Origin: Daucus carota subsp. sativus
Taxonomy: Eukaryota; Streptophyta; Magnoliopsida; Apiales; Apiaceae
Length of the DNA: 64,000 nucleotides
NCBI RefSeq assembly: GCF_001625215.2
Contig: NC_030388.2
Location: 24,540,558 to 24,604,557 of the forward strand
Reading direction: 5' to 3'
Part shown: positions 35,278-58,402 of the stretch, in pieces
How positions within the stretch are numbered: the stretch's first letter is position 1
Layout: every line of letters begins with the position of its first letter
The notes under the pieces: generated by a model
Database searches by the model: none
Told to the model about the DNA's origin: nothing
What the model saw: the letters and a program-made list of their open reading frames with translations, nothing else
Position numbers and translations under genes: made by a program

Positions 35278-35999
35278 GGTGAGCATTCGGTCGGTTCGGT
35301 TCAAAACCGAACCGAACCGAAAAAACCGAAAACCGAAATATGCTTTTTTTCAAAACCGAACCGAACCGAATTATTTTTCTAAACCGAACCGAACAAACCG
35401 AAATATTTCGGTTCGGTTTCGGTTTCGGTTTCGGTTTCAAAAACCGAAATTTTCAAAAAAACCTGTGCTCTTAGCAAGTGTTATCCTTTGTTGCTCTGCC
35501 TAGATACTACCATTGCCAATTTAACTAGATTCATCATGCCTTTCAAAATTCGCCGTAATCCAGAAGCTTACTGATATGCAAGATTGGGTCAAAACACAAA
35601 ACAAATGCTCACAGTAGTTCCCCATTCATGAAACTAAGCAGGCTCGAGAACAATGTAAATGATTGAAATAATTGTTGCCTTGCTGCTGCTGCTGCTGCTG
35701 TTCGTGTGATGTATTGACGTGAGGTGAAGAGCTGCGACTTCAAAAGAGAACTAGCTGGATAGGACTGAGTACATGGTTTAGCTATATATAAAATATATTT
35801 TTTAAGATGTATTATAAATTTCGGTTTTTTCGGTTTAAACCGAAATATCATATCAAAAACCGAACCGAACCGAAATTATTTTCGGTTCAAACCGAAAAAC
35901 CGAACTAACCGAAATTTTGAAAAAAATGAAACCAAACCGAACCGAAATTATACGGTTCGGTTCGGTTTTTCGATTTTGGTTCGGTTTTGCTCACCCTTA
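35278..35999. mobile_element. MITE with AACCGAACCG-rich arms, present in one duplicate only
   Basis: The arms are built of ACCGAA/TTCGGT repeats. The tips read GGTGAGCA on the left and TGCTCACCCTTA on the right, as in hAT-type MITEs. The empty site in the paralogous spacer (GGCGGTACGAAG near 56350) defines the insertion. Only a 3-bp GTA is duplicated at its borders, not the 8 bp expected for hAT. The interior holds a short (CAG)n-type run. Confidence 0.85.
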
Positions 36000-36705: not shown

Positions 36706-36907
36706 CAAAGACTAAGAAGTATACTCAGACTCTCAGAGTAAGAACATAAATATCTAGCAGAGAAAATATAGCGGCCTGCCTGTAAAAATATCTAGTCTCT
36801 CGGAGAGAGCTGATTGGAGGGTTCAGAGAAGATGCTTGTAATTCCCTGTGTCCAGTACCTTTAGCAGCAAGTAATTATAAAAAGATATTAATCGAGGGTC
36901 CATCCTT

Positions 36908-37425
36908 CTTATAATTCCTGAGTCTACCAGGGTCCCCAGTTAACCAATCAAAAAACTTGATTTATTTTAGAGCCAATAGGATGGCAAGCCTAAAATTTAG
37001 ACCAATAAAATTATAGCAGTTTTTTGGTCATTTAACTAACCATGGTCAGTGGATAATTTATAAGAATTTTTTTAAAGTTAACCATGGTGAGTGGATAAAT
37101 TATAAGAATTTTTTAAAAGTAAAAATACTATTATTTTAACAGAACACTACTACATCCACAGTTACGTCACAACTGTGAAAATCAGAATAGGAGAACTTCA
37201 CCTGCTCTTGAAACAAAACTTTGCGCGACCCTTCCGCTACTGACATTATTTACTTCTTCGAATTCAACCGGAAACCGTGTAAGCTCTCTCCAACTCATTA
37301 GCATACAACCAGAGCTTTCGATATTGTATGTTATTTTTATTGTATGCTATATGTTTGTGTTATTGTCTAGCTTATAATACCTGAAGCTACAGGTCCCAAG
37401 TTAACCAATCAAAATCAAGTTTGAT
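36908..37425 (+). repeat. Helitron 5'-terminal sequence repeated internally
   Basis: The terminal segment 36903-36964 (TC, 3 nt, CTTATAAT, later GTTAACCAATCAAAA) recurs at 37366-37425 with the same TC-to-CTTATAAT spacing. Between them, a roughly 45-bp tandem repeat containing AACCATGGT..GTGGATAA..TATAAGAATTTTTT lies at about 37037-37118. Confidence 0.8.
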
Positions 37426-38220
37426 CTGTCCAGCTTAACAATTCAACTGCCATTCAGAAGATGCAAAATTTCCCCTTTCATATTGTCTTTATTGTTTTTA
37501 GTTTATTTGGGATGTTTAGTTAGTTGTATGATTTTCTATATATCTAGCCAGCCAATGTATGGATTTTTTAGTGTTATAGATTGCTAAAATCTGTGTGGTG
37601 ATTTGACCACTTAGTTAAGAACAACGATAATACCAGTCAGAAGAGTGGAGATTGTTTTAGGCTTTTACTTTAGATTTTAAGGAGGAGAAGACCACATGGG
37701 ATGTGGGATGAGTAGGTGATGCTGGAGCTATATATCTAAAATACAGGAACTGTGTGTAGTTTATTAACTATCATTGCTAAAACTGCGAACTTCTATATGC
37801 AAAATTGAAAGATGAAGGACAGTCCAGAAAACAAATCAAAATGACATAATAAAAACTCATAATGCCATGATCTGAGACATTGTACTCATAGGTTAAAGTA
37901 CCACTAATTCTTTCACAGAAGTTAAAAGAATGACTTAGGAAAAAAAACTAAGTTAAAGGAATGATAAAAGACAAACTTTTAGCACTCTCAATTCAAATTT
38001 TGTAATTTCTTGACCATTTATGTGAACATCAGTATTACCATTAGTAGCATTGTGGCACCATTAGTAGCATTGTGGCTGAGTCTTCCATGAAAACTTAAAT
38101 GCAAACTTATAATATTGTTTGGTTTATTACTGCTGCAATACTTTGTATCACAAACCCAGCACAACTCCTCTGTTTTCCACTTCCCTTTTCCACACTTACA
38201 ACACACCCTCCTTTTACCTA

Positions 38221-38361
38221 TCTTTTATTTTAATTTTTCTCTGTTGTGATCCCAACATATTCCAAGAGCTTCATATTTAAATTTGCAGAATGTTAGTGTT
38301 TAACTTTAAATGTCCAAAACTGGCACAATAATTAGAGTAGTAGTAGTTGTTGTTGTTGTTC

Positions 38362-38452
<91 letters not shown>

Positions 38453-38567
38453 CTTTTATTTTAATTTTTCTCTGTTGTGATCCCAACATATTCCAAGAGC
38501 TTCATATTTAAATTTGCCGAATGTTAGTGTTTAACTTTAAATGTCCAAGACTGGCACAATAATTAGA

Positions 38568-38640
<73 letters not shown>
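38221..38640. repeat. Duplicated 117-bp segment, each followed by a long (ATT)n microsatellite
   Basis: Segment 38221-38337 recurs at 38452-38569 with very few changes. Each copy is followed by an ATT run (about 38361-38451 and 38570-38640). The pair looks like a tandem duplication whose unit included the microsatellite. It lies in the Helitron upstream of RepHel. A 20-bp tandem duplication (CCATTAGTAGCATTGTGG) also occurs at 38038-38076. Confidence 0.9.
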
Positions 38641-38641
<1 letters not shown>

Positions 38642-39012
38642 ATTTTTCCTGCGATAATACCTTTTTTCCAAATAACGAATATATAACACCACTTTAACAT
38701 GTATATTGAAAAAAATTATTAAAAATGCATATTTTAAAAATTATTAAGGACTAATTTTTTTTAATATAATTACTTTTATGTATCTTTTGTGTGGAAGTTC
38801 ATGATTTTACTTTTCCTTTCGTAAAATATTGTAGAATTTTAATGTTTAACCTTAAATGTCTAGACCTTGACGCATTTGTCGACTTTTTTCACACATATAA
38901 CATGTAAAGTGTTAATTGTTAATTTATTGATCTTTTTAATGTTTTTTTTTGGGGTTCGAGGTAAATAACTTTTTTCTTTTGGTGGCTCAGGTAATTAACT
39001 GTGACTATTTAT

Positions 39013-42000
39013 ATGGACAATTCTCATCCTCAACAGCACACCGTCACTTTGCCCTTGAAACGAAAAAGAGGTTTCCTAATGCCTTGATATATTTCAATTT
39101 CTTTTGTTATGTTAAATTATTTTTATTCATCATGGTTTCAATTGTCACTTTCAAATGATAGGACGACCAAAGAAAGAAGTTGTCAATAGTTCAAATACAC
39201 CTACATCGGTGTCACCTGGACAAAAAAGGGCCATCGGTATTGATTAAAATCCATGCATTTTAGATATTATGTTATAAAAATGTTCTTTGGTCATATCATA
39301 ATTTTTGTTTTAAATAATTACCAGGTCGACCAAGAAAGAATGTAGATGTTGGAACTTCAAGCACCACACTTGAATTAAAGGATGGTGTCCTGCTTTCAAA
39401 CTCAACATCTCAACTCATGTCACCTCCACCAAAAAAACCTGTTGGTATAACTTTACAACCACTTTATATGTGTCAATAAGTATCTAATACATATCATATT
39501 TTTATCTAAATATAATGGTTATTTATAAAATTACATTGATATCAGGCCGTCCGAGAAAGGTGCATACAAATTCAATAAGTGCCTGTGAAACAATAATTAG
39601 AGGTATATTTTCACATATTTGTTATGTACTCTTCTATTTATTTGTACTTAGATTTTAATTTTTTTGTATAATATTTTACAGGTCGACCCGTGCCTCTTAT
39701 ACCTGTGCCTCTTATAGGGAAGACATCTACATTATGTAATAATACTTACATTGACGTAAATGGTTAGTTTTATTGTTTATGTTTGTACGTTTGGCCAAGT
39801 TATAATGTTTAGTTTTCATCTTATTATTTGTATTTATGATGTATATATTCATTTTGTAGCCCACCTTCGTCCTTTATTGCCAAAGCCGCCTTATTTATCA
39901 TATAATAATGTCAGAAACGTACCATCTTCCTCACAACTTACAAAAAGTGAGTATTAGATTGCAGCATCCACTATATTTTGTAATATGGATATTTTCTTGC
40001 AATAATCATGATCTAATTGTATGTTTTTATAGGAAGTGGACATTCATTTGTAAATAGTAGCAATGATACGAGAGGAACTTCATCAAAGGTTTTAAAAATT
40101 AAATCCAGATTTTCTGGGAGTATCGACGATGTAAATGATTCGGAATCATATGAATTAGACGAAGGTAACCATTATGTGTTATTTCATATATATATATATA
40201 TTTTTTGAAATCATGTGTGATTTCATATATAACACCATATATTCGTAATATTTTCTGATTGATACATGTAACATATACACATTCATTTACGAATTGATGA
40301 AATTCCTTTTTTATGGACATGCAGAGTATATTATCGACGGTGACAATGATGAGAATTACATTAACGGCGAAGAAGCAACTGATGATGATACAATGATGAC
40401 CCGAACAGGCGAAGGTACTAATTTCCTGAAATAATAATGTATGGACATTACCATTTGTCAAGAGTCATGAATATTATTATGTTCACTTTCATCTAATATC
40501 ATCATAATTATTATCTTAATTAGGTATTAGAAGTAACTATCTCAATTTAGGTATGCCCAAGTACAAGTGCAAATTTTGTCAGGCTATGATGTGGATTGAG
40601 GAGAGAAATAACAAATCTGTGACCGACCCTACCTTCTCAATATGTTGTGCTGGTGGTCAAATTCAGTTGCCAGAGGTCAAAGATCCTCCTCCTTACCTAG
40701 CTGGACTACTATTTGGACAATCGAAGAAATTTCGCGCTTCTATAAAAGTGTATAATGCCATGTTTTCTTATACATCTTTAGGAGGTAAAGTGGACAAGCT
40801 CATAAATAAAAATGGCGGGGGTCCATTTTGTTTTCGACTAAGTTGTCAGAATCATCATAGCATTGGGAGTTTGGTACCGCTTGATGGGAGAAAACCAAAA
40901 TTTTGTCAGTTATACTTTTATGACACTGAGAATGAGGTTGATAATCGAATGCTTGCATTTCGTTCAAAGGATGATAAAAAGGGTATACAGCGAGAAATTG
41001 TTGAGAATCTCATAAAAATGTTTGATGAAGTAAGTCCCTTGGCTCAGAGATTTCGACAAGCAAGAGATCGTTTCAAAGAACAGCCACCACAAGATCTGAA
41101 GATCATTCTTAAAGAATCTAGGTCCGCTTCTGGACGTCCGAATCACATTTATCCATCTTCAGAGATTGCTGCATTCATAGTTGCAGAAAATGATCCTTCG
41201 GGTGGTGATAGAGATGTAGTTGTCCATACAAAAACTTCTGTTCCAAAGAGAATAAGCTTTATACACCCGCTTTTCATGGCATTGCAATATCCTATATTAT
41301 TTCCATACGCTGAATATGGTTTTCATACAGGAATAAAATATAGGACTACAGGTTCTAATACTAAGAAGAAAAGGAAAAATGTAACACTGAAAGAGTACTA
41401 TTCTTACCAGCTCCATACACGACCAAACGAAGGTTAGTTATTGTACATTTTGTTCATTGTACATATAATGATGGTTCATGTTAAAATAATGATAATAGAA
41501 TTTATGTTACATTTATATGCAAAATTTATGTGCAGGATTGACATTGCGATATGGTGGACGTCTCTTTCAACAATACATAGTTGATGCTTTTTCTGTTATT
41601 GAGCAAACACGTCTTCATTGGTATAGAACTCATCAAAGTACAGTCAGGGCTGATATGTATCAAAACATTCGTGATCAAGTCAGAAAAGGTGATGAAAATC
41701 CCAATAGTTGTGGAAAATCCTATATTTTGCCAGCATCCTTTACTGGTTCAAAACGGTACATGAACCAAAATTTCCTCGATGCTCTTGCCATATGTCGGGC
41801 TATCGGACATCCAGACATATTTTTGACAATGACAGCTAATTCCAAATGGCCAGAGATTCAACAAATGCTTGACCATACTCCCGGACTGACTGCGGATGAT
41901 GCACCAGATATAGTTACTCGAGTTTTCAAGTTAAAATTAGACCAGCTTCTGCATCTTATTAAGAAAAAACATTTTTTTGGTCGCTGTATTGGAGGTATGT

Positions 42001-45000
42001 GCATTTACAAGTTTAAGAATGTTATGACAAATTTGTGAACTACCATTTATGATATTTCTGACAATGTAATAAACATTATATTTCAGCATTACATGTCATA
42101 GAATTTCAAAAACGCGGCTTGCCTCATGCACACATGGTGATATGGTTACATCCTGACAGTAAGCCTAAGACCATTCAACAAGTCGATGAAATGGTCTCTG
42201 CCGAGATACCAGATATGGATCAAGATCCGGATGGCTACAATGCTGTAAAACAGTTCATGATTCACGGACCTTGCGGCACAATCGACAATACCTCTCCATG
42301 TATGGATGCTGAACGTAAGGTTTGCACACGCCATTTTCCAAAAAGGTAATCGTTATAAGGATACATGTTTAATTACTATAAATTAGTATTGTTACTGTAT
42401 TTTATACGATAAAACACTTCCATACTTGCTATATTACTGTTGTTCATACAAAAAAACACCATACATTATGTACACAACTTACTAATTTTAAAGTCATGGC
42501 AAAATAACAAGAAACAAAATTGCAATATAAACTGCATGCTACAACATTGTATAATAAAATACTCTATTTTGTTAAATGACAAAATTTTAAATAATTCTCA
42601 TAAGTTTAAGAGTTACACTATGTTAGGATACTGTGCATCAAGCACTTCCAAAATAACATCAGATGCTTCGATGACCTTGGCCAACTCCCTGTACAAAGCC
42701 TTCTCCGGAGTGTCTACATAAAATCAAGTCTTAGACAACATAAACATATAAAAAGTGGTATTTTCAATTAAGATTAATATGTTTTGCATTGGAATATTGT
42801 AGAGTAAATAGTCAGCACCACACTAATTTACAGAGCAAGACAGAAAAATAAATCATTCAAAACAAACTATACATGCTGGAATATTGATGCTTCATCACTC
42901 TGCCAAAAAAATAAATACTGAATTTATTTATTGTACTGTAAAGAAAAAAAATAAACCATTATCTGTAACTAACCTAATGCATATATTCAATTTTTTATAA
43001 TTTCAAATGTTCAGATTAAAGTATTACTCATGGGAAAAAAACCCATCAGGGAATATAACTTGATATATTCCTCTTGAATAACTGCTTAGTGGCCACTAGA
43101 AACCGAAAGGTATGCCATTGATATAATACCAATGTATAATCTGCTGGTATTTTACATGTTTTACTTGCATTAAGTTACATTTCTTTTATAATTTATATGT
43201 TGTAATTGTTACTACTTATTCCATGTTTAATTTGCATTAGTCTAACTTTCACCTCCTGTATAATTTCATAAGGTATGCTTCTGAGACAACCTATGATGAC
43301 AGTGGATTTCCGGTGTATAGACGACGCAAAACAAGCCATACTGTTCATAAAAATAATGTCGACCTAGACAATCAGTGGGTAGTGCCGTATAACAGAGATT
43401 TGTTACTCATGTTTCAGTGTCACATCAATGTTGAAATTTACAATCACTCACGAAGTTTGAAATACCTTTTCAAATATTGCATGAAAGGACATGACCGAGC
43501 AACCATGCTATTGGTTGGAGCTAAAAATACACTGCATGAAAATACCCAGCAATCAGACAATACTAAAGTTGCTCCTATTAATGAGATCAAACAATATTTA
43601 GATGGTCGGTACGTGTGCGCTTCAGAAGCGATATGGAGAATTTATGGATTCAATATACACCTCAGAACTCCATCTGTTGAACGACTACCTATTCATCTGG
43701 AGGATATGCAGATCATCACTTTTAACAGCAATGAGTTGTTAACAAATGTGGCAAAACGTGCTTCTTTTCGACTTACTAAGCTCCAAGCGTGGTTTCAAGC
43801 TAATCGAGAATATCCGTGGGCACGAGATCTCTACTATCAAGAGTTTCCTGCTTCTTTTGTGTGGGATGCAAATTCAACCAGATGGACACCTAGAAAACAG
43901 GGTTTTGTTGTTGGCAGGATGAACTCCACTTATGCTTCTTCAGGAGATTTGTTCTACTTAAGAATGATACTTACTAGAGTCAAAGGAGCAACGTCTTTTA
44001 CTGACCTTCGAACTGTCAATGGACAAGTATATAAAACTTTTAAAGACACATGCAATGCTTTGGGACTTTTACAAAATGACATGGAGTGGCACGAGGCAAT
44101 AAAGGAAAATTCTCACCATGCTACTACATCACAGTTGCGTCAGCTTTTTGTTCATATTATCGTCAACTGCGAGGTCAGCAATCCAGCAAAACTGTGGAAT
44201 GATCATATAAAAGATTTTTCGGATGATATAGTTTGGATGCGGCGACGTATTTCTAAAAATAATGAACTCATTTTGTCCGAGGAGGAAATACAATTTTGGG
44301 CTCTCGCAGGTTAGTGTTCTAAACACTGAATACGTTATCACTGTTTTATTAATTTAGATATAATAGCACATGAAAAAATCTTATTTCTGCCAATATTGAA
44401 TTACTCTCAGAACTTGAGCAAATATTGAATTGCATCGGGAAGTCTCTACGGAGTTATTCAGATATGCCATTCCCTCCCGCTGAATTTCTATGCGGAATTT
44501 CAAACACTCTTATTCAGGAGGAAAGAAGTTATGATATTCAGACCATGATAGCCGAACACCAACAACTACACTCAACTCTAAACAGAGATCAAATGGTGGT
44601 ATACGATTCAATAATTGAATCTGTTCACAATAAAAAAGGAAAGTTTTTTTTTGTACATGGCAGCGGTGGATGTGGAAAGACCTTCCTATGGCGAACAGTA
44701 ATTTCAAAATTGAGATCCGAAAGAAAAATTGTTTTACCCGTTGCTTCCTCTGGAATTGCGGCCGTGCTAATGCCAGGAGGTAGAACTGCTCATTCGAGAT
44801 TTAAGATACCATTAGATGTAGATGAACATTCAAGTTGTGGTTTGAAAATGGGAACCGATATAGCTGAGTTATTACAAAATACAGATCTAATTATTTGGGA
44901 TGAGGCTCCAATGCAAAAGAAGTATGCATTCGAGGCACTGGACCGAGCTCTTAGAGATATACGTGGCAGCATTTCAGAAGACAACATGTTGAAGCCATTT

Positions 45001-46041
45001 GGTGGTATTACCGTAGTTCTTGCAGGTGACTTCAGACAAATCTTACCTGTTGTAGAGAAGGGGAATAGGCAAGACATTGTTAGTGCTTGCATAAATCGGT
45101 CTTATTTGTGGGATCAAGTTACGTTCTACACTCTTAAACAAAATATGAGGTTGAAAAGAGGTAATACTGAAGAGGTTAACAATGCTATCAATAAATTCAG
45201 CAAGTGGGTGCTAGACATTGGCGATGGACGGCTTTCATTTGTTAATGATGATGACCCAAATAAGGATCCAGAAGTTGTAATTCCGCAACAGTTTATCAGC
45301 CCCTGCACAAATAATCCTCTTTCCGATATTGTTGACATTGTATACCCAGATATTGAAGGCAATTTCAAAGATCATCGATATTTAAGGGATAGGGCAATTC
45401 TTGCTCCAACTAATAAGGTGGTTGATGAACTTAACGACCATATCATGGATCGTATACCAGGAGAAGACCAAATTTACTTGAGTGTTGATAGTATTGACGA
45501 AGGTCCAGTAAATGAGAGTGACCTGAATTCAGCTTTTCCAGAAGAATTTTTGAACTCAATTGACATGTCTGGACTTCCCAAGCACATGCTAAATCTCAAA
45601 CCTGGTGTTGTGGTCATGCTAACAAGGAATATAAACCAGGCTTTTGGGTTGTGCAATGGCACACGTATGGTGGTAAAAAAACTTTTTAAATGGACAGTTG
45701 AATGTGAGATTATCACCGGAAGCCATTCAGGAAGTAGACATATAATCCCAAGGATGATAACTACCCCTTGCGACAACAATTCTAAATGGCCTATCATATT
45801 TAAAAGAAAACAGTTTCCTCTGCAGGTCTGTTTTGCAATGACAATTAACAAGAGTCAGGGACAATCAATGGAGAAAGTCGGCTTATATCTTCCAAACCCA
45901 ATCTTCTGTCACGGACAACTGTATGTTGCTATTTCACGTGTCACTACCCCAGAAGGATTGCATATTATGTTGGGAGATGGAACAAACCACACTAAGAATA
46001 TTGTATATGAAGAAGTCTTTTACAACCTACCTACAGAATAG
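39013..46041 (+). CDS. Helitron RepHel protein (HUH replication initiator + Pif1-like helicase) with AT-hook N terminus
   Basis: Thirteen exons (39013-39070, 39162-39236, 39325-39444, 39546-39602, 39682-39762, 39860-39946, 40033-40164, 40325-40414, 40524-41432, 41536-41994, 42087-42345, 43273-44309, 44411-46041) join in frame to 1664 aa. Exons 1-8 (about 233 aa) form an N-terminal extension. Exons 2-5 each open with GRP, three as AT-hook-like GRPKK or GRPRK. Exon 9 has a CKFC zinc-binding start and leads into the Helitron N domain. The HUH motif is GLPHAHMVIW (His703, His705). The two catalytic tyrosines are in KYLFKYCMKG (Tyr840, Tyr844). The helicase has Walker A GSGGCGKT (1205-1212), Walker B IIWDE (1285-1286), GDFRQILP, and a C-terminal KSQGQS..YVAISRV. 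No frameshift or stop is seen. The ATG is the first plausible one. An extra upstream exon is possible. Confidence 0.9.
42631..42717 (-). pseudogene. Captured exon fragment resembling nucleostemin-like GTPase (NSN1)
   Basis: Read on the minus strand inside RepHel intron 11, 29 codons stay open and give a peptide with ALYRELAKVIEASDVILEVLDA. This closely resembles the segment before the first GTPase motif in nucleostemin-type proteins, as I remember the family. Only this exon-sized piece is visible. The usual DP-GTRC continuation is missing and the downstream donor lacks GT. Gene-fragment capture is typical of Helitrons. The 927-bp intron (42346-43272) is otherwise AT-rich and unassigned. Confidence 0.55.
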
Positions 46042-46472
46042 AATTCTGTATTAGAAATTAAAATATTTGAACCTGACACTTATTTATTGAATATGTTTAT
46101 TTTAGTGTGATTCTTCCCGTTCATTTATTTCCATCTCTTCAATCTAAACTGTATTTATTATATTTGTTTAGAGATAGATTGTATAGTTTAAACTTTTTAC
46201 AGGTGTATCTACAAAGTCGATTAACGGGAAGCTGTATATTAAAGGCACTGAATGATGCATATAATTTTAAATACTGCATGACAGGAACTTGAATATGCAT
46301 GTGATTCTGTGATTACAAATTTCAAAACTCTGTTAATTTTAATTTAGTTTATTTGCTTCATAAGAACTCATGGACCTTCACAGGTCACAACTACATCAGT
46401 GAAGTCTTCAACCCCAATCACTTATATACAAACACATGTTGATGTAATTTATATGCATGTGTATATTTGCAG

Positions 46473-48591
46473 AAAACACATATTCATGCTTTCGGCGGAG
46501 TCGATTTTGTGAATGGAATGGAAGAGGTTCCTGAAGAGGGAAAGGTTTACGTCATATCGGAATTTAATGTTGATGATGTCAAATATTCTTATTCGGCTGT
46601 CAGTAATAAAAAAGAAATATATTTCCTCAAACGGACAACAATGACACTCATCAAGGAAGACGACGGAATGATTCCAAAATATAAATTCGAGCTGGTAGGT
46701 TTCAATGCCCTGAAAGCCAGAGTTGGAGACACCAATATCTTGACAGGTATTGACATACAGAAAAACAAATTTATATACAATTATAACACCCACTTATCAC
46801 CTCCTGTTATCACTAAGCTCTTGCTCGCATTACCAGATCTTATGGGTTCAGTTGAAAACATCCTTCCAATGCAAAGCCGCAACACAGCCACAGGGCCAAA
46901 GGACATATTGTTGTTTGACCTTACAGACGGCAGGTAAACTATTAATCTCCCTGCATTATCCTAAACACAAATCTTTTTTGCCCAAACATAATTTAATATA
47001 ATTTTTGCAGTGAGAGGATAAAGGTAACAGTGTGGGCAGACCAGGCACATGAATTAAAAGCAGAACTCGACAAAATGGGAGATGAGTACAAAATCATCAT
47101 TCTTACCAGTTGTGGTATAACAGAGTATCGTAGTAAGTATCCTTCCCCCAACCTCATTTAAAATAAATACACAATATAATATACTAATTTGTAAATATAA
47201 TATCAAAATGGCCTAACAACCACAATCTCATTTTTGCAGAACAACTACAAGCAAGTTCACTATCCCCAACAAAATTCTATATCAACCCAAATTATGATGC
47301 GGTGCACAATCTACGATACAAGTACGTAATGTTCTCTAAATATGCATATCATGCCTCTTTTCTACTAAATCATCATATAATTATACTCACCAATAAACTT
47401 ATCAACACTTTGCATATTCATGCCTTCACAACACTCTTATGCCCACTATTTCCATGTGTTTTGATGTAAATTAATATAATATCTTCCCCACCTACTATCA
47501 AAACAGGCTCAATGCTATAAATGAACCAATGATTGGGGATGAATCACCTTCAGTGGTTGACTGCTCAGAAACGAAGATCGAAACATATAATTTGAAGCAG
47601 ATTACCGAGCTTCGAAAATCTGATATGCAAAATGTATGTAAATCCTACCCCATTTTATTGTCAACTAAAACAATCTCCTGGACTCTTATTACTAACCTAT
47701 TCTAACCATGTTGTAGTTGGAAGTGATATGTCATGTATCCGTTTGTAGCATCGATGCACAGTCTAAATGGTGGTTTTATAGTTGTGACTCATGCCCAAAT
47801 GAACTCACTTTCATCGACAATAGCTACAAGTGCGAAGACTGCGTCAAGATCGTATCATACCCAGACAAGAGGTATCACTTTAAATACATAATATCCGGCA
47901 TATTATATACAAGTAGTAAACATGTTTTACAAATAATATTGCAGGTTCAAGGTCTCTATGTATGTTACTGATCCAACTGACACAATTCAAGTGTTTATGT
48001 TCGATCGCGAGGTCAGGCGTTTAGTGTCAGCCACAGTAAACGGTTTAATTGGTCAAAATATGAAGGTAAAAACACATTATAATCTTTTTAAAAATAAAGT
48101 CTGCAATACTAATATCCTATCATAGAAACAATAATATCCTAAACCATTGATTATATCTTTTACAGGAAGGAAAGGGAGACAAAATACCAGAAAAAATTAT
48201 CAACATCACTGGAAAAAGACTCATCCTCACTTTATCCTTAAATCCTAAAAACTTGGTTGATGGGAATTCGGTATATTTTGCATCAGATGTAGTTGAAACT
48301 TCTGAAAATCCATCACCTGAACAACCTTCTGAACAAAATACCACAGTAAGGGCTCTCAAAATTTATATTGCAACTATAGTTTACCAAATAAATTAATATT
48401 CCTACTCAACTGTTTGCTATCAAATACAACTTTAACGACCCTAAAATAACATATTATTTTCTCCATTCTTACAGGTATCAACTACACATCATAATGGTGC
48501 TGCTGTCGATAATACCATGGGGATAAAATCTGCATCAAATAAACGAGTGCACAACAAGGACGATGGACCTACTAAGAAAAAAAAAACTTAA
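46473..48591 (+). CDS. Helitron-borne RPA1-like single-strand DNA-binding protein, 5' end unresolved
   Basis: Eight exons (46473-46933, 47011-47132, 47240-47321, 47507-47633, 47717-47871, 47945-48065, 48166-48345, 48475-48591) join in frame to 454 codons and a stop. The first visible exon starts at an acceptor (TTTGCAG) in phase 0, without its own ATG. The peptide KTHIHAFGG..EEGKVYVISEF fits an RPA70-type OB fold. A later OB fold contains a zinc ribbon, CDSC (287-290) and CEDC (303-306) counted from the first visible codon. The tail is basic (GPTKKKKT). Plant Helitrons often carry RPA-like genes next to RepHel. RPA binds single-stranded DNA, so a role in rolling-circle transposition is plausible. 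I found no convincing first exon between 46042 and 46472, so the gene may be 5'-truncated. Confidence 0.8.
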
Positions 48592-48886
48592 TTACCATAG
48601 GACATCATCCTTTTCTCACAGACACGTAGGAACTATAATTTATTCTCTTAGAACTATGTTCTTTATCTGATGCTCAACTTTACATTCTTATCGGGATTAT
48701 AACTGATACTATATTATTTATGTTCGAAATTATTTACCGATTACTCTTCATATATGCCAATTCTTGCATCATGAACCGTGTCACAAAACAATCAAGCTTC
48801 AACTAGGAAATAACAACAAAAAACAGTGCACAATTTGAAATGTCGTGTCCAATATCTATTTAACAAAAATTTTAATAAAATTACGG

Positions 48887-48910
48887 TGCGTAGCACGGGT
48901 TAAATACTAG
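48887..48910 (+). terminator. Helitron 3' terminus (hairpin + CTAG)
   Basis: The stem GTGC/GCAC with loop GTA is followed by GGGTTAAATACTAG and the host T. In Helitrons this hairpin marks the end of transposition. It is not a transcription terminator. Confidence 0.85.
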
Positions 48911-49033
48911 TTTTTATATTAGAAATATATAAGATCGAAATCATAAATTTACAGCTGCTGCATGAAAACCCAAGATAATCTCTCTTCCAGCTGGCATTAT
49001 ATCAGATAAAGTTCAGAAAGATTCTCTGGCGCC

Positions 49034-49041
49034 TATAAATA
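49034..49041 (+). promoter_or_regulatory. TATA box of NAC copy C
   Basis: TATAAATA follows GGCGCC, 118 bp before the ATG and only 124 bp after the Helitron end. The core promoter is intact, but the distal promoter blocks (36490-36902) are displaced by 12 kb. Confidence 0.8.
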
Positions 49042-49151: not shown

Positions 49152-50564
49152 ATGGCCTTGAAGCTTCCCCCAGGCTATAAATTTTGCCCGAGTGACAAAG
49201 AGTTGTTGGAGAACTACTTGAAACCCAAGATTCAGGGGACGCTTTCTTGGGATGTGATCCAGGAGAAGGAGATTTACGGTCCCAACGCCAATCCATGGGA
49301 GATTTTCGATGACTCTTCGACTCAGTGGATACCCTTTGGTAAACAAAAATCTGTTTATGTGTTTACTCGTTTAACAAAGATGGCAGATAAGGAATCATCT
49401 GGTGAGGGGAGTGAAGGACACTATGTGAGGACAGCAGGTTGTGGCACGTGGCATGTGGAAACGGGTCGTAAGGCCGTCATGGATGGTGATAATAATCCTA
49501 TTGGGGAGAAGAGGATGTTGGTTTTTCAGATTAATGATAGTAATGGATTGAAGAGTGGAGTTCAGTATTATTGGAATATGCATGAGTATCTTTTGAAGGG
49601 GATTGAGGATTATGTGGTTTGTCGGATCACTCTTGATATGATGAAAACTGTCAAGGTTTGCCCCAAAGATGTTTCTGGAAGACGTGGCAGCACCAAGTCT
49701 AAAGCAAAGAAGAAATCTGCTACTACTTCTAATACTAATCACAGGGAAAAGGCGGTGTTGGTTGATAGTTTCTGCGATCCAAGAAAGGAGGTGGCCTCTA
49801 ATATTCATGATTCTAGTACGTGTGGATTCAGTTATGAGAATCAGAGATGTGATGAAGAGAGGATTGAGATGGTCTATCAGAATCTGTTGGCCTCGACGAA
49901 TACCCTTTGTCTCGATGGTTCTGACCACAGATCAATCCTTAATGAAGGTATGCCACAATATGATGATGCAAGGGGGAGGTCTCGTGTTGAAAAACCAGAG
50001 GGTCAGGGGCTGAATGTACTTAATGATGATCAGGGACTCAACAATGAAGAAGCCGCCCAACCAGTGAATTGTATGGGTGAGGGTTTTCAAAACATGGGGA
50101 CAGTATTATCAGATTTCAACGGTGGGTCTGAGGACGAAGTATATCTGGACTTGGAGGATATAAATATAATTGGTGATGATTTCTGGTCAGATGCTGACAA
50201 TGTGCCGATGATGGATCAGCCACTGCCCAACCGTGATGTTCCTTTAAATTTGGAGGATTTGCTTGATGCGGGCTCTTGGTCAGATTTATTGGAGGAACTG
50301 GGGCAAGACGACAACCATGTTGACAATGTGCCAATGATGGATCAGCCACTGCCCAATAGTGATCTGTCTTTGAATTTAGAGGATTCGCTTGATGCGGGTT
50401 CTTGGTCAGATCTATTGGAGAAACTGGGGCAAGTGAACAACAATGTGCAGGAGCAACAACAGCAACAATGGCAACAGCCTACGCAGAACATGAGTTGCGG
50501 ATTGGGGAAAAGGAAGTCATTCGAAGCTGAAGAAGCAGGACCTGCTAAAAAGTCTTGCATCTGA
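49152..50564 (+). CDS. Divergent NAC-domain transcription factor, copy C (470 aa)
   Basis: An intact intronless frame with the same layout as copy A: NAC fold with GTWHVETG, basic linker, two 42-aa acidic repeats (the second has LEDSLDAG, a Leu-to-Ser change in the hydrophobic patch), KRK..KK tail. It differs from the others at ELLENYLKPK, FQINDSNGLKSG and NIHDSS. A 12-kb Helitron has split its promoter about 240 bp upstream of the ATG, so its expression may differ from its sisters. The remnant E' at 57323 is a close relative of its 5' end, and F' at 58367 of its 3' end. Confidence 0.85.
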   Translation: MALKLPPGYKFCPSDKELLENYLKPKIQGTLSWDVIQEKEIYGPNANPWEIFDDSSTQWIPFGKQKSVYVFTRLTKMADKESSGEGSEGHYVRTAGCGTWHVETGRKAVMDGDNNPIGEKRMLVFQINDSNGLKSGVQYYWNMHEYLLKGIEDYVVCRITLDMMKTVKVCPKDVSGRRGSTKSKAKKKSATTSNTNHREKAVLVDSFCDPRKEVASNIHDSSTCGFSYENQRCDEERIEMVYQNLLASTNTLCLDGSDHRSILNEGMPQYDDARGRSRVEKPEGQGLNVLNDDQGLNNEEAAQPVNCMGEGFQNMGTVLSDFNGGSEDEVYLDLEDINIIGDDFWSDADNVPMMDQPLPNRDVPLNLEDLLDAGSWSDLLEELGQDDNHVDNVPMMDQPLPNSDLSLNLEDSLDAGSWSDLLEKLGQVNNNVQEQQQQQWQQPTQNMSCGLGKRKSFEAEEAGPAKKSCI

Positions 50565-55331: not shown

Positions 55332-57217
55332 TTTTGTTTTCATGTTCTGAGTTTATTTTTAGGCTTTCTTGTATAATGACGAAAGTGGTTACTGAAGTTG
55401 TCTGTTTATTTACTTGGCCAATTCCAAGGGAATGGAACATTTCTTATGACAATCTATAGTTCTTGCATGTATACTCCTAAACTTTGTCAATGGATAATGT
55501 ACTCAATTCTGCATCCGATTTTCTGATTTATTTTCTTAGTTGCTTTGACAAATTCAGTGAATAACATTGTTAAAATCAATCAATAGCGCTTTAGGTCAAT
55601 AGCATGAAGCTGTATTGCTCTGCAATTGGATTATATATTTATTGTACTTGGTGATTTTATATGTGAAGAAGCTTAAACTCATTTTAGCTATCCCAGGATC
55701 AGAATCACATTCTTCAACATTGTCTAGGCTATGAAGCCTGAGATAAGCCATGGAATAAGGGTAGAGTTATTAGTAAATTAAGATCATCTAGTGTTTTAAT
55801 ATGAGCTTGTGCATTCTCTGGACTCACATATCCACCCATCTGAATAAAAGACCAAGAATGTGCTCGCATTAATTTAAGGATACGATTGCTGGTATGTCGA
55901 TAGTTCTACTTTTTTAGACTTTTACTTAATTTCGTACTTGGAGAGCCCTCATATTGTGAGTAACTATCGAATAATCTACAATGACTAAAATAAACTTGTT
56001 GTTTTCTCCTTTGTCTTGCGTTGCATGTCATTTGTTACGCATGGGAATTCAGGGTTCGGGACTTATATATTTCACTCGTTTTACATTAGAATCTTTTGTG
56101 TTCATGTCTTGTGTTGTATTAGTTAAAAGAAAAGAGTTAGAACATTTAGACTAAATTATCTATATATCGAGCATGCCTCTGTTTCGTAAGCTGAGAAACT
56201 TATGAGTTATGAGGGCTTGATCTGTCAAATGCAATCATTAGATACCGATCGTTTATGATTATCCTGGAGGCGATTCGACTTGTCTCGGCGAGTTGATTCA
56301 TCTCGGCAGTGATGAGACAAGCCAACATGATGTGTCGAATTTAAGTTGAGACAGGCGGTACGAAGCGAGACGATACGCGAATTCTGATTCTAAATCTCGT
56401 GAACGCTTCGCCTATTCAAATGATCCGTGCCGAGTTAATCTTGTCTTGTAACAGGAAAAAAAAATTGATAAGTTTTTAGATGAGACGAATCGAGCCGAGC
56501 TCATTCATCTGTTTGGCTAGCTCTACTTTTAATTTTAGGAACCGACTGTAATATTTTATCTTTAAAAATTTTAACTGACAGTTTCAACTTTCAATCTTGT
56601 ATGGTTCAGCATATTTTTTTAAGACAAGAACAACAAAAACACAATTACACAATTATCTTTAAAAAATGAATGATAAATTTTTAATATATTTTAATAGTTA
56701 AATTTTTTATATATATTTTAATATATCGTTGACACATTTGTGTTTTAGCAACATCTCAGTAAGGTATAAAATTTAATCAAGAGTATGCTAGTGGCTGTGA
56801 TATATGATATTACTAGGCACAAATATATATATAATTTTTATTAAAAATCATCAATAAACAAATAATGAGTTGGGTGTGAAGTCACTCTGTCATGTTATTT
56901 GGACAAAAGTTGGGAGGATCTTGTACTAAGTTTCCAGGATGATAATATGAAGCTCTTATTTCTCTGAAAGTGAAAAGCATTCAGCTAGAGCAAGTCCAAA
57001 CAATGTATGGACTATGGAGGAACCAGCATAACACATTAGCACATACACTTTTCCCGCCAAAACAAAGACTAAGAAGTATACTCAGACTCTCAGAGTAAGA
57101 ACATAAATATCTAGCAGAGAAAATATAGCGGCCTGCCTGTAAAAATATCTAGTCTCTCGGAGAGAGCTGATTGGAGGGTTCAGAGAAGATGCTTGTAATT
57201 CCCTGTGTCCAGTACCA
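55332..57217. repeat. Duplicate of the B-to-C spacer
   Basis: Matches 34245-36860 closely, without the 722-bp MITE. At GTCCAGTACC (57217) it jumps to AATCTTCTGTCAAATTC of the 5' leader. The segment between the GTCCAGTACC block and the TATA box of the sister copies is therefore missing. No independent gene seen. Confidence 0.9.
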
Positions 57218-57322
57218 ATCTTCTGTCAAATTCACTACTTTCTACACAAGTTTTACCACGCTCATACATTAACCTAGTCTCCTCTTAAGCCTTAAGGTTT
57301 CAGCATCGTAAGTTAGTTAGTT

Positions 57323-57620
57323 ATGGCCTTGAAGCTTCCCCCAGGCTATAAATTTTGCCCGAGTGACAAAGAGTTGTTGGAGAACTACTTGAAACCCAAG
57401 ATTCAGGGGACGCTTTCTTGGGATGTCATCCAGGAGAAGGAGATTTACGGTCCCAACGCCAATCCATGGGAGATTTTCGGTGACTCTTCGACTCAGTGGA
57501 TACCCTTTGGTAAACAAAAATCTGTTTATGTGTTTACTCGTTTAACAAAAATCCATGTGTTTACTCGTTTACTCGTTTAAAAATCTGTTTATGTGTTTAT
57601 GTGATAAAGATGGCAGATAA
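57323..57620 (+). pseudogene. NAC copy E', 5' fragment
   Basis: The 5' leader and the first about 76 codons match copy C with two or three differences. The frame then runs into a scrambled duplication of the GTGTTTACTCGTTTA motif and stops after 85 codons (57578-57580). A further scrap homologous to AAGATGGCAGATAA follows before a foldback element. The core promoter with the TATA box is deleted. It encodes only NAC subdomains A and B, so it is non-functional. Confidence 0.92.
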
Positions 57621-57621
57621 T

Positions 57622-58161
57622 AGTAAAGTATATACATGTATTTTAAGCGAAACACCACTTGCAATATTGCACTTCTAATACTACCACATGCAATATCACG
57701 GTTCATAACCCGATACAGTTTATGCAGTCCCGTATATACTTCTTAATGTTATTAACAGACAAAAGGATATTTATGTAGTTTCACCTCTGTTATACTTCTT
57801 TTGTGCTTCTTTTTGCTATATAATGAAGCTGCAACCCCCTGAATCATTCTACAACCTCACGCAACCCTAATTTTCTGGCTAGCATAACAGTTGGAAAATT
57901 AGGGTTGCGTGAGGCTGTAGAATGATTAGGCGGGGGTGTTGTAGGTTCGTTAAATAGCAAAAAGAAGCACAAAAGAGCCGTTATAAAGGCAAAATTACAC
58001 AAATACCCCTTTATCTGTTAATGACGTTAAGAATTATAGACGGGACTGCATAAATTGTATCGGATTATGAAATGTGATATTGCATGTGATGATTTTAGAA
58101 ATACAGTATTGCAAGTGGTGTCTCGCTTAAAGTACAGGTACACAAAATGCACTTAATTACT
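57622..58161. mobile_element. Foldback MITE, about 540 bp, long near-perfect hairpin
   Basis: The two halves are inverted copies over nearly their whole length: TTTTAAGCGAAACACCACTTGCAA on the left faces TTGCAAGTGGTGTCTCGCTTAAA on the right. The centre is CCTCACGCAACCCTAATTTT..AAAATTAGGGTTGCGTGAGG around a 20-nt loop. It interrupts the dead NAC copy. The target duplication and exact tips are not resolved. Confidence 0.85.
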
Positions 58162-58366
58162 CATAATAATATTATATCTATCTCATGCATTTTATAATGA
58201 AATCAATAGAAACAATGTGAAATATTTATCAGTAGGCTTGCGTTCCATGAGCTGCAAAAGTTGGGAGGATCTTGTACTAAGTTTCCATGATCATAATATG
58301 AAGCTCTTAGTGCATAGTAACACATTAGCACATACACTTTTCCCGCCAAAACAAACACTGAGAAGC
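58162..58366. repeat. Fragment of NAC distal promoter sequence
   Basis: Resembles the regions upstream of copies B and C (CATGCATTTTATAAT-type block, AAAGTTGGGAGGATCTTG, the TTTTCCCGCCAAAA site). It ends abruptly at AACACTGAGAAG, where the C-like coding 3' end begins. Confidence 0.75.
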
Positions 58367-58402
58367 TGAAGAAGCAGGACCTGCTAAAAAGTCTTGCATC
58401 TG
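58367..58402 (+). pseudogene. NAC copy F', last 11 codons and 3' flank
   Basis: The codons for the end of the tail (..EEAGPAKKSCI, stop 58400-58402) directly follow promoter-type sequence, so the entire NAC domain and acidic repeats are deleted. The 3' flank that follows (to about 59400) matches copy C and later copy A. It may be the other end of E', or a separate lost copy. Confidence 0.9.

Follow-up and report, generated by a model that had tools for sequence, protein, structure and literature searches.

A carrot Helitron with exact borders, an unbroken RepHel gene and an RPA gene without its first exon

Introduction

To our knowledge, few plant Helitrons have been demonstrated to be active. 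The locus described here raises the question of whether the 12-kb insertion in the promoter of a carrot NAC-like gene is a complete, young and presently active autonomous Helitron, as an earlier note on this DNA had proposed, or an element that has already lost part of its equipment. The window, the whole 64,000-nucleotide stretch analysed, corresponds to C8:24540558-24604557 in a genome assembly of 441,086,747 bases and 11 contigs. Plant Helitrons have been called poorly understood (PMC13286980).

The results indicate that the insertion is a genuine, though not fully intact, Helitron with exact borders and an unbroken RepHel gene. Judged from its sequence, it is very probably a plant Helitron of the RepHel+RPA type and a likely rolling-circle mover, located in the promoter of a tandemly arrayed NAC gene, with a 5'-truncated RPA gene, captured pieces of a nucleostemin-like gene and a probable mosaic structure.

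Results

Borders and insertion site

The element and its termini are located as follows, a slash marking a border between host and element in the text below.

36903..48910, forward strand: whole Helitron, TC...CTAG, 12,008 bp, placed by empty sites and family termini
36903..37039, forward strand: 5' terminal sequence common to the family, matched by the three best relatives from base 1 to 137 at 85-89%
37371..37414, forward strand: inner pseudo-5' terminus with 84.8% identity to the outer terminus
48884..48910, forward strand: 3' terminus with the short hairpin GTGC-GTA-GCAC and the CTAG end

The insertion site is the promoter of the NAC-like gene at 49152, one gene of the tandem NAC array. 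Direct reading of the border bases gave A at 36902, TC at 36903-36904, CTAG at 48907-48910 and T at 48911, which are the 5' TC and 3' CTRR ends of the Helitron superfamily. The joined host flanks could be aligned to three of the four other paralogous NAC promoters (27.4, 32.5 and 53.6 kb) with neither a break nor a duplication; relative to these three empty sites the element lies between A and T without a target-site duplication, as is characteristic of Helitrons. All four promoters had been proposed to show the uninterrupted target. The fourth (57.2 kb), which is 99.5% and 98.8% identical to the two Helitron flanks, instead carries a deletion that spans the site, the overlap being the four bases TACC; since it lacks 36860-49041 it does not discriminate between absence of the Helitron and its deletion, and was rejected as a dated empty site.

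At each of the three empty sites the sequence is GGGTCCG/TTTT, and the window flank reads GGGTCCA. Since the paralogs have G at the border where the window has A, the canonical A/TC reading requires one host substitution; either AT was already present at the target in the window paralog when the element inserted, or the true border is one base further left. The sequences of the family ends favour the canonical border A/TC...CTAG/T. Among 29 loci examined, six of which were unmatched by the script, A preceded TC in 21 of the 23 script-matched 5' ends (18 of 20 distinct places). T followed CTAG in all 20 of the 3' ends examined out of 35 found, of which only the T is independent since the 20 were chosen by a pattern ending in CTAG; the presence of other hairpin arms in 17 of the 20 indicates that these ends come from related rather than identical groups. 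An element displaced one base leftward (36902-48909, A...CTA, inserted into CC/GTTTT) would need no host substitution to account for the G at all three empty sites, but it violates the TC...CTAG rule and the flanking A and T are those that insertion into AT predicts, so that, even though constant A and T alone cannot separate host from element bases, this placement is highly improbable.

The 3' hairpin is weak, with a 4-bp stem, a 3-nt loop and a folding energy of -3.0 kcal/mol (z -0.40), and 63 of 200 shuffled sequences folded at least as well. The hairpin expected for the superfamily is 16-20 bp long and lies 10-15 bp before the 3' end. The sequence of the hairpin of the earlier note is kept in all three relatives with paired termini described below, but the stem is no stronger than that of shuffles. 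Among 3' ends of the wider family, the full CCCGTGC/GCACGGG stem (here the slash separates the two arms) was found in 10 of 20 (L033-L052), and a weaker variant is common to the window, C3 and C4 ends (3 of 20) as well as to C8 and L002.

The inner terminus at 37371 was rejected as the true border because the empty sites end at 36902/36903. Multiple termini arising through nesting are known from maize Helitrons (PMC3288121). In several family members, L013, L016 and L022 among them, the first 5' end is closely followed by extra copies of approximately its bases 39-135. The 5' region of the window element also contains two (ATT)n arrays within a 194-bp direct repeat that is 94% identical (38219-38640).

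Two further features were observed in the neighbourhood. An insertion of ∼720 bp with GGTGAGCA...TGCTCACC ends is located near the Helitron at 35278-35999, with an empty site in the paralogous stretch at 56358. A fifth NAC copy (57213-58370) is broken: the Helitron site is missing, the sequence diverges from the gene at 57549, and an 81% inverted repeat of ∼500 bp is present (57633-58140).

Family members with paired termini

A genome search with the 5' end of the window element, in which 40 of 125 candidates were scored, gave at least 87 matches, and the 3' pattern had 35 with at most one mismatch against none for the pattern read backwards. Pairing was evaluated for 40 of the 87 5' matches, those beginning within the first 7 bases, with the inner copy of the window left out. 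A 3' end in the right orientation within 40 kb was found for four of the 40, the window included, where 0.06 were expected by a rough formula. Three further elements therefore carry both termini, as expected of a Helitron family, and each reads A/TC...CTAG/T.

C8:6783629-6796625: paired relative C8, 12,997 bp
C3:13060453-13073846: paired relative C3, 13,394 bp
C4:25784890-25819920: paired relative C4, 35,031 bp, apparently enlarged by insertions

The earlier note had placed the borders of the window element at 36903 and 48910 and had suggested a search for paired termini; the three empty promoters and the three relatives with the same paired termini support this placement.

Alignment of the C8 and C3 relatives gave two segments, one of 508 bases with 98.2% identity and one of 12,522 bases with 99.74% identity (24 mismatches), and the similarity extends just 6 bases before and 14 bases after the element. 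At an assumed rate of 7e-9 substitutions per site per year, the two would have separated ∼0.14 My ago, from which it follows that the family moved recently. The window copy stands outside this burst, its nearest relatives showing 85-89% identity over the 5' end and 91-92% over RepHel, and no close copy of its lineage was found among the candidates scored in the 5'-end and RepHel searches of the genome. At two loci, C6:31374735-31381554 and C1:29878614-29886852, RPA matches lie behind family 5' ends, and the candidates scored included no RepHel match there; these are possibly RPA-only elements like the mother element of rice Mothra.

RepHel

39013..46041, forward strand: RepHel gene, 13 exons, 1,664 aa, identified by Pfam and motifs
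39070..39559, forward strand: three AT-hook motifs, GRPKK, GRPRK and GRPRK, starting RepHel mini-exons 2, 3 and 4
42125-42139: HUH motif
43463-43477: two-tyrosine motif
44659-44682: Walker A motif, with further helicase motifs up to 45942

The single reading frame across 13 exons proposed earlier was reproduced to the base, with a coding sequence of 4,995 nt, no internal stop, one terminal stop at 46041 and GT-AG borders at 12 of 12 introns. Pfam searches identified Helitron_like_N (3.4e-54), PIF1 (4.1e-90) and the Pif1 2B domain (6.6e-20), and the protein combines the HUH motif, two tyrosines and PIF1-like helicase of Helitrons.

With 40 of 137 candidates scored, the genome search revealed at least six copies of RepHel at a threshold of E<=1e-50. 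The window copy alone among the six is free of disruption in the stretches checked, which were all 13 exons for the window, C8 and C3 and exons 12-13 for C4 and two outgroups. In C8 and C3 the splice sites are kept and the exon lengths differ by multiples of three except for exon 9, which is one base shorter in each, the frame being lost at different places; assembly error is a possible cause of these frameshifts. Exons 12-13 contain two stops and seven gapped codons in C4 and one stop and one gapped codon in each outgroup.

Comparison of the window and C8 genes gave a dS of 0.316 and a dN of 0.050, a ratio of 0.16, with ∼0.16 obtained against two relatives. The ratio was 0.56 before residue 250 and 0.10 after it (dN 0.175 and 0.030). 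With the two outgroups, 61 synonymous and 26 non-synonymous changes in exons 12-13 were assigned to the window branch and 51 and 23 to the sister branch, for rough dN/dS ratios of 0.11 and 0.12; 59 changes were unassigned, and codons with a gap or a stop in any of the copies were dropped, as were sites differing between C8 and C3. By these counts the two branches look equally constrained.

A search for GRP[RK][KR] in six frames of the whole window returned three occurrences, all at the starts of RepHel exons 2, 3 and 4. Three AT-hooks are present in the N-terminal region of all six RepHel copies, with one further, distant match in C4, and have been retained although the N-terminus otherwise changes fast; the outgroup at C3:33.17 Mb has a stop within the third hook exon. 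The motifs may serve to bind the minor groove of AT-rich DNA, either close to the 5' end or at the target. No paper on AT-hooks in a Helitron protein was found in the open-access collection searched.

Host sequence captured in intron 11

42381..43149, reverse strand: window-specific insert in RepHel intron 11, ends approximate
42720-42622, reverse strand: captured exon, PDB match to guanine nucleotide-binding protein-like 3 (E 1.2e-4)

Intron 11 of RepHel is 927 bp long in the window compared with 207 bp in the C8 relative, and the insert is absent from all three relatives. Positions 42572-42618 correspond to C3:63726959-63727004 and positions 42625-43150 to C3:63727453-63727982, with ∼85% identity and in unchanged order; 448 donor bases between the two pieces are missing from the insert, and the captured piece is 14.5% diverged from its donor. 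The donor is a multi-exon host gene, in which three separate stretches correspond to parts of a nucleostemin-like GTPase, with 43, 81 and 65% identity to a paralog on C1. The matches indicate that, in the lineage of the window Helitron, a RepHel intron has acquired fragments of this host gene. No Helitron 3' pattern was found in 17 kb around the donor locus. A second nucleostemin-like gene, at C1:1273658, resembles the captured exon less closely than does the gene on C3. An origin of the insert as a nested TIR transposon was considered and rejected, one weak inverted repeat being all that was found. Putatively autonomous maize Helitrons are already known to carry gene fragments (PMC3288121).

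The RPA gene

46050..46441, no strand: stretch between RepHel and RPA, 392 bp in the window versus 2,960 bp in the C8 relative, where RPA exon 1 is located
46473..48591, forward strand: 5'-truncated RPA-like gene, nine remaining exons, 424 open codons

The OB-fold exons downstream of RepHel constitute a separate RPA-like gene (Rep_fac-A_C, 4.9e-8), with PDB matches to RPA and to telomerase-associated RPA-like chains, and the element thus contains the RPA-like gene typical of the plant RepHel+RPA type. A single fused RepHel-RPA protein was rejected because of the RepHel stop at 46041 and the separate RPA exon 1 in three relatives, and no splice route from RepHel to RPA was seen when the translations were inspected by eye. 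In the C8 relative exon 1 supplies the ATG and the start of the first OB fold, and the exon in C8, C3 and C4 is 100, 98 and 90% identical to the C8 peptide. No match to exon 1 was found in the window Helitron, which therefore lacks a complete RPA gene; a copy hidden elsewhere in the window was rejected, the matches being of the chance kind.

The remaining exons are open in C3, and one exon of C8 is two bases shorter in the alignment, so that RPA may not be open in every relative. The window remnant gave a dN/dS of 0.18 against C3. Since its 424 codons are open and this ratio is low, exon 1 was probably lost recently, or the remaining frame is still used from another start.

RPA has the greater synonymous divergence, 108.8 of 270 sites when compared with C3; the RepHel figure is 273.7 of 1,062 sites when compared with C8 (p 3e-6). 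Based on this difference the window Helitron is probably a mosaic, the RPA half of which split from the relatives earlier than the RepHel half. Faster synonymous change in RPA would also account for the difference, and no closer source of the RPA half was found, the matches being 76 and 74% on C1 and 74-75% in the three relatives, which counts against the mosaic reading.

Discussion

Age and activity

The description of the element as apparently intact holds for RepHel, which is unbroken, but not for RPA, the first exon of which is absent from the window and present in all three relatives. Its supposed youth is not supported by the distance to its nearest relatives given above.

Two other readings were weighed against that of a genuine Helitron that is not fully intact. 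The first, which we consider unlikely, is an immobile relic, an old insertion in which RPA is already broken and RepHel is open only by chance. The truncated RPA gene and the failure to find a close copy of the lineage among the candidates scored are consistent with a relic, as is the 14.5% divergence of the captured piece, though this dates the capture and not the insertion. However, the window RepHel has no disabling change where the five other copies each have at least one in the stretches checked, and the ratio on the window branch is low.

Less likely still is the complete, young and presently active autonomous Helitron of the earlier note. It draws on a RepHel unbroken over 4,995 nt, on selection on the window branch like that on the sister branch and on the recent movement of the family documented by the C8 and C3 copies; with assumed neutral rates, an unselected copy would break after ∼0.15-0.3 My on average. 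Against it stand the absence of RPA exon 1 and, again, the lack of a close copy among the candidates scored.

Movement of the not fully intact Helitron favoured here would most likely proceed by rolling circle, by analogy with Helraiser and wheat Feng8. The HUH/two-tyrosine Rep domain would nick at the 5' TC, the PIF1-like helicase would unwind the strand and the 3' hairpin/CTAG end would stop the process. The unbroken RepHel of the window copy may supply the enzyme. Since its own RPA is 5'-truncated, the element would rely on RPA of the host or of a sister element, if RPA is needed at all. Tentatively, the three mini-exon AT-hooks of the family RepHel may hold the Rep nuclease either at the AT-rich 5' end or at AT targets, as a module not known to have been described for Helitron proteins, and the window copy may be the last source of enzyme for the non-autonomous members of the family in this genome.

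Comparison with known systems

Helitrons of this kind are already known; worth following are the array of AT-hooks, the missing start of RPA and a capture whose donor can be traced. An unbroken RepHel, verified ends, sister copies and a traceable donor provide a test bed for Helitron biochemistry, gene capture and the need for RPA. No paper title on an autonomous carrot Helitron was found in the literature searched. A Helitron insertion is reported to disrupt the carrot carotenoid candidate gene DCAR_730022 (PMC10581907), and a source of enzyme may therefore matter for the history of the crop.

Large intact Helitrons had been called uncommon in plant genomes, which overstates the case given the putative autonomous maize elements ZmhelA1 (14,632 bp) and ZmhelB2 (12,217 bp) with unbroken RepHel (PMC3288121) and the active wheat Feng8 (PMC13286980). 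Among the closest known systems are maize ZmhelB1 and ZmhelB2, which are 12-13 kb long with an unbroken RepHel and RPA domains after the helicase, ZmhelB2 also carrying captured gene fragments; in these the RPA, with three DNA-binding domains, is part of the same ORF, whereas in the window it is a separate gene without its first exon (PMC3288121). Animal Helitrons are described in the same source as encoding Rep and helicase only (PMC3288121).

Wheat Xuan-Feng/Feng8 likewise encodes a plant RepHel in which HUH and two tyrosines are combined with a large N-terminal domain, and Feng8 is reported to be the one autonomous member of its family that is fully intact (PMC13286980). In contrast to the window Helitron, Feng8 has an activity shown by experiment, and the passages describing it mention neither RPA nor AT-hooks (PMC13286980). 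Rice Mothra and its RPA-only mother element share the plant Helitron RPA (PHRPA), the TC/CTAG ends and insertion between A and T, but the mother element lacks RepHel and the window Helitron is the reverse case, with RepHel and a broken RPA (PMC4683698). Bat Helraiser likewise has TC/CTAG ends, an AT-rich stretch near the 5' end and the RepHel core, and differs in a 19-bp palindrome where the window Helitron has a 4-bp stem (PMC4778049).
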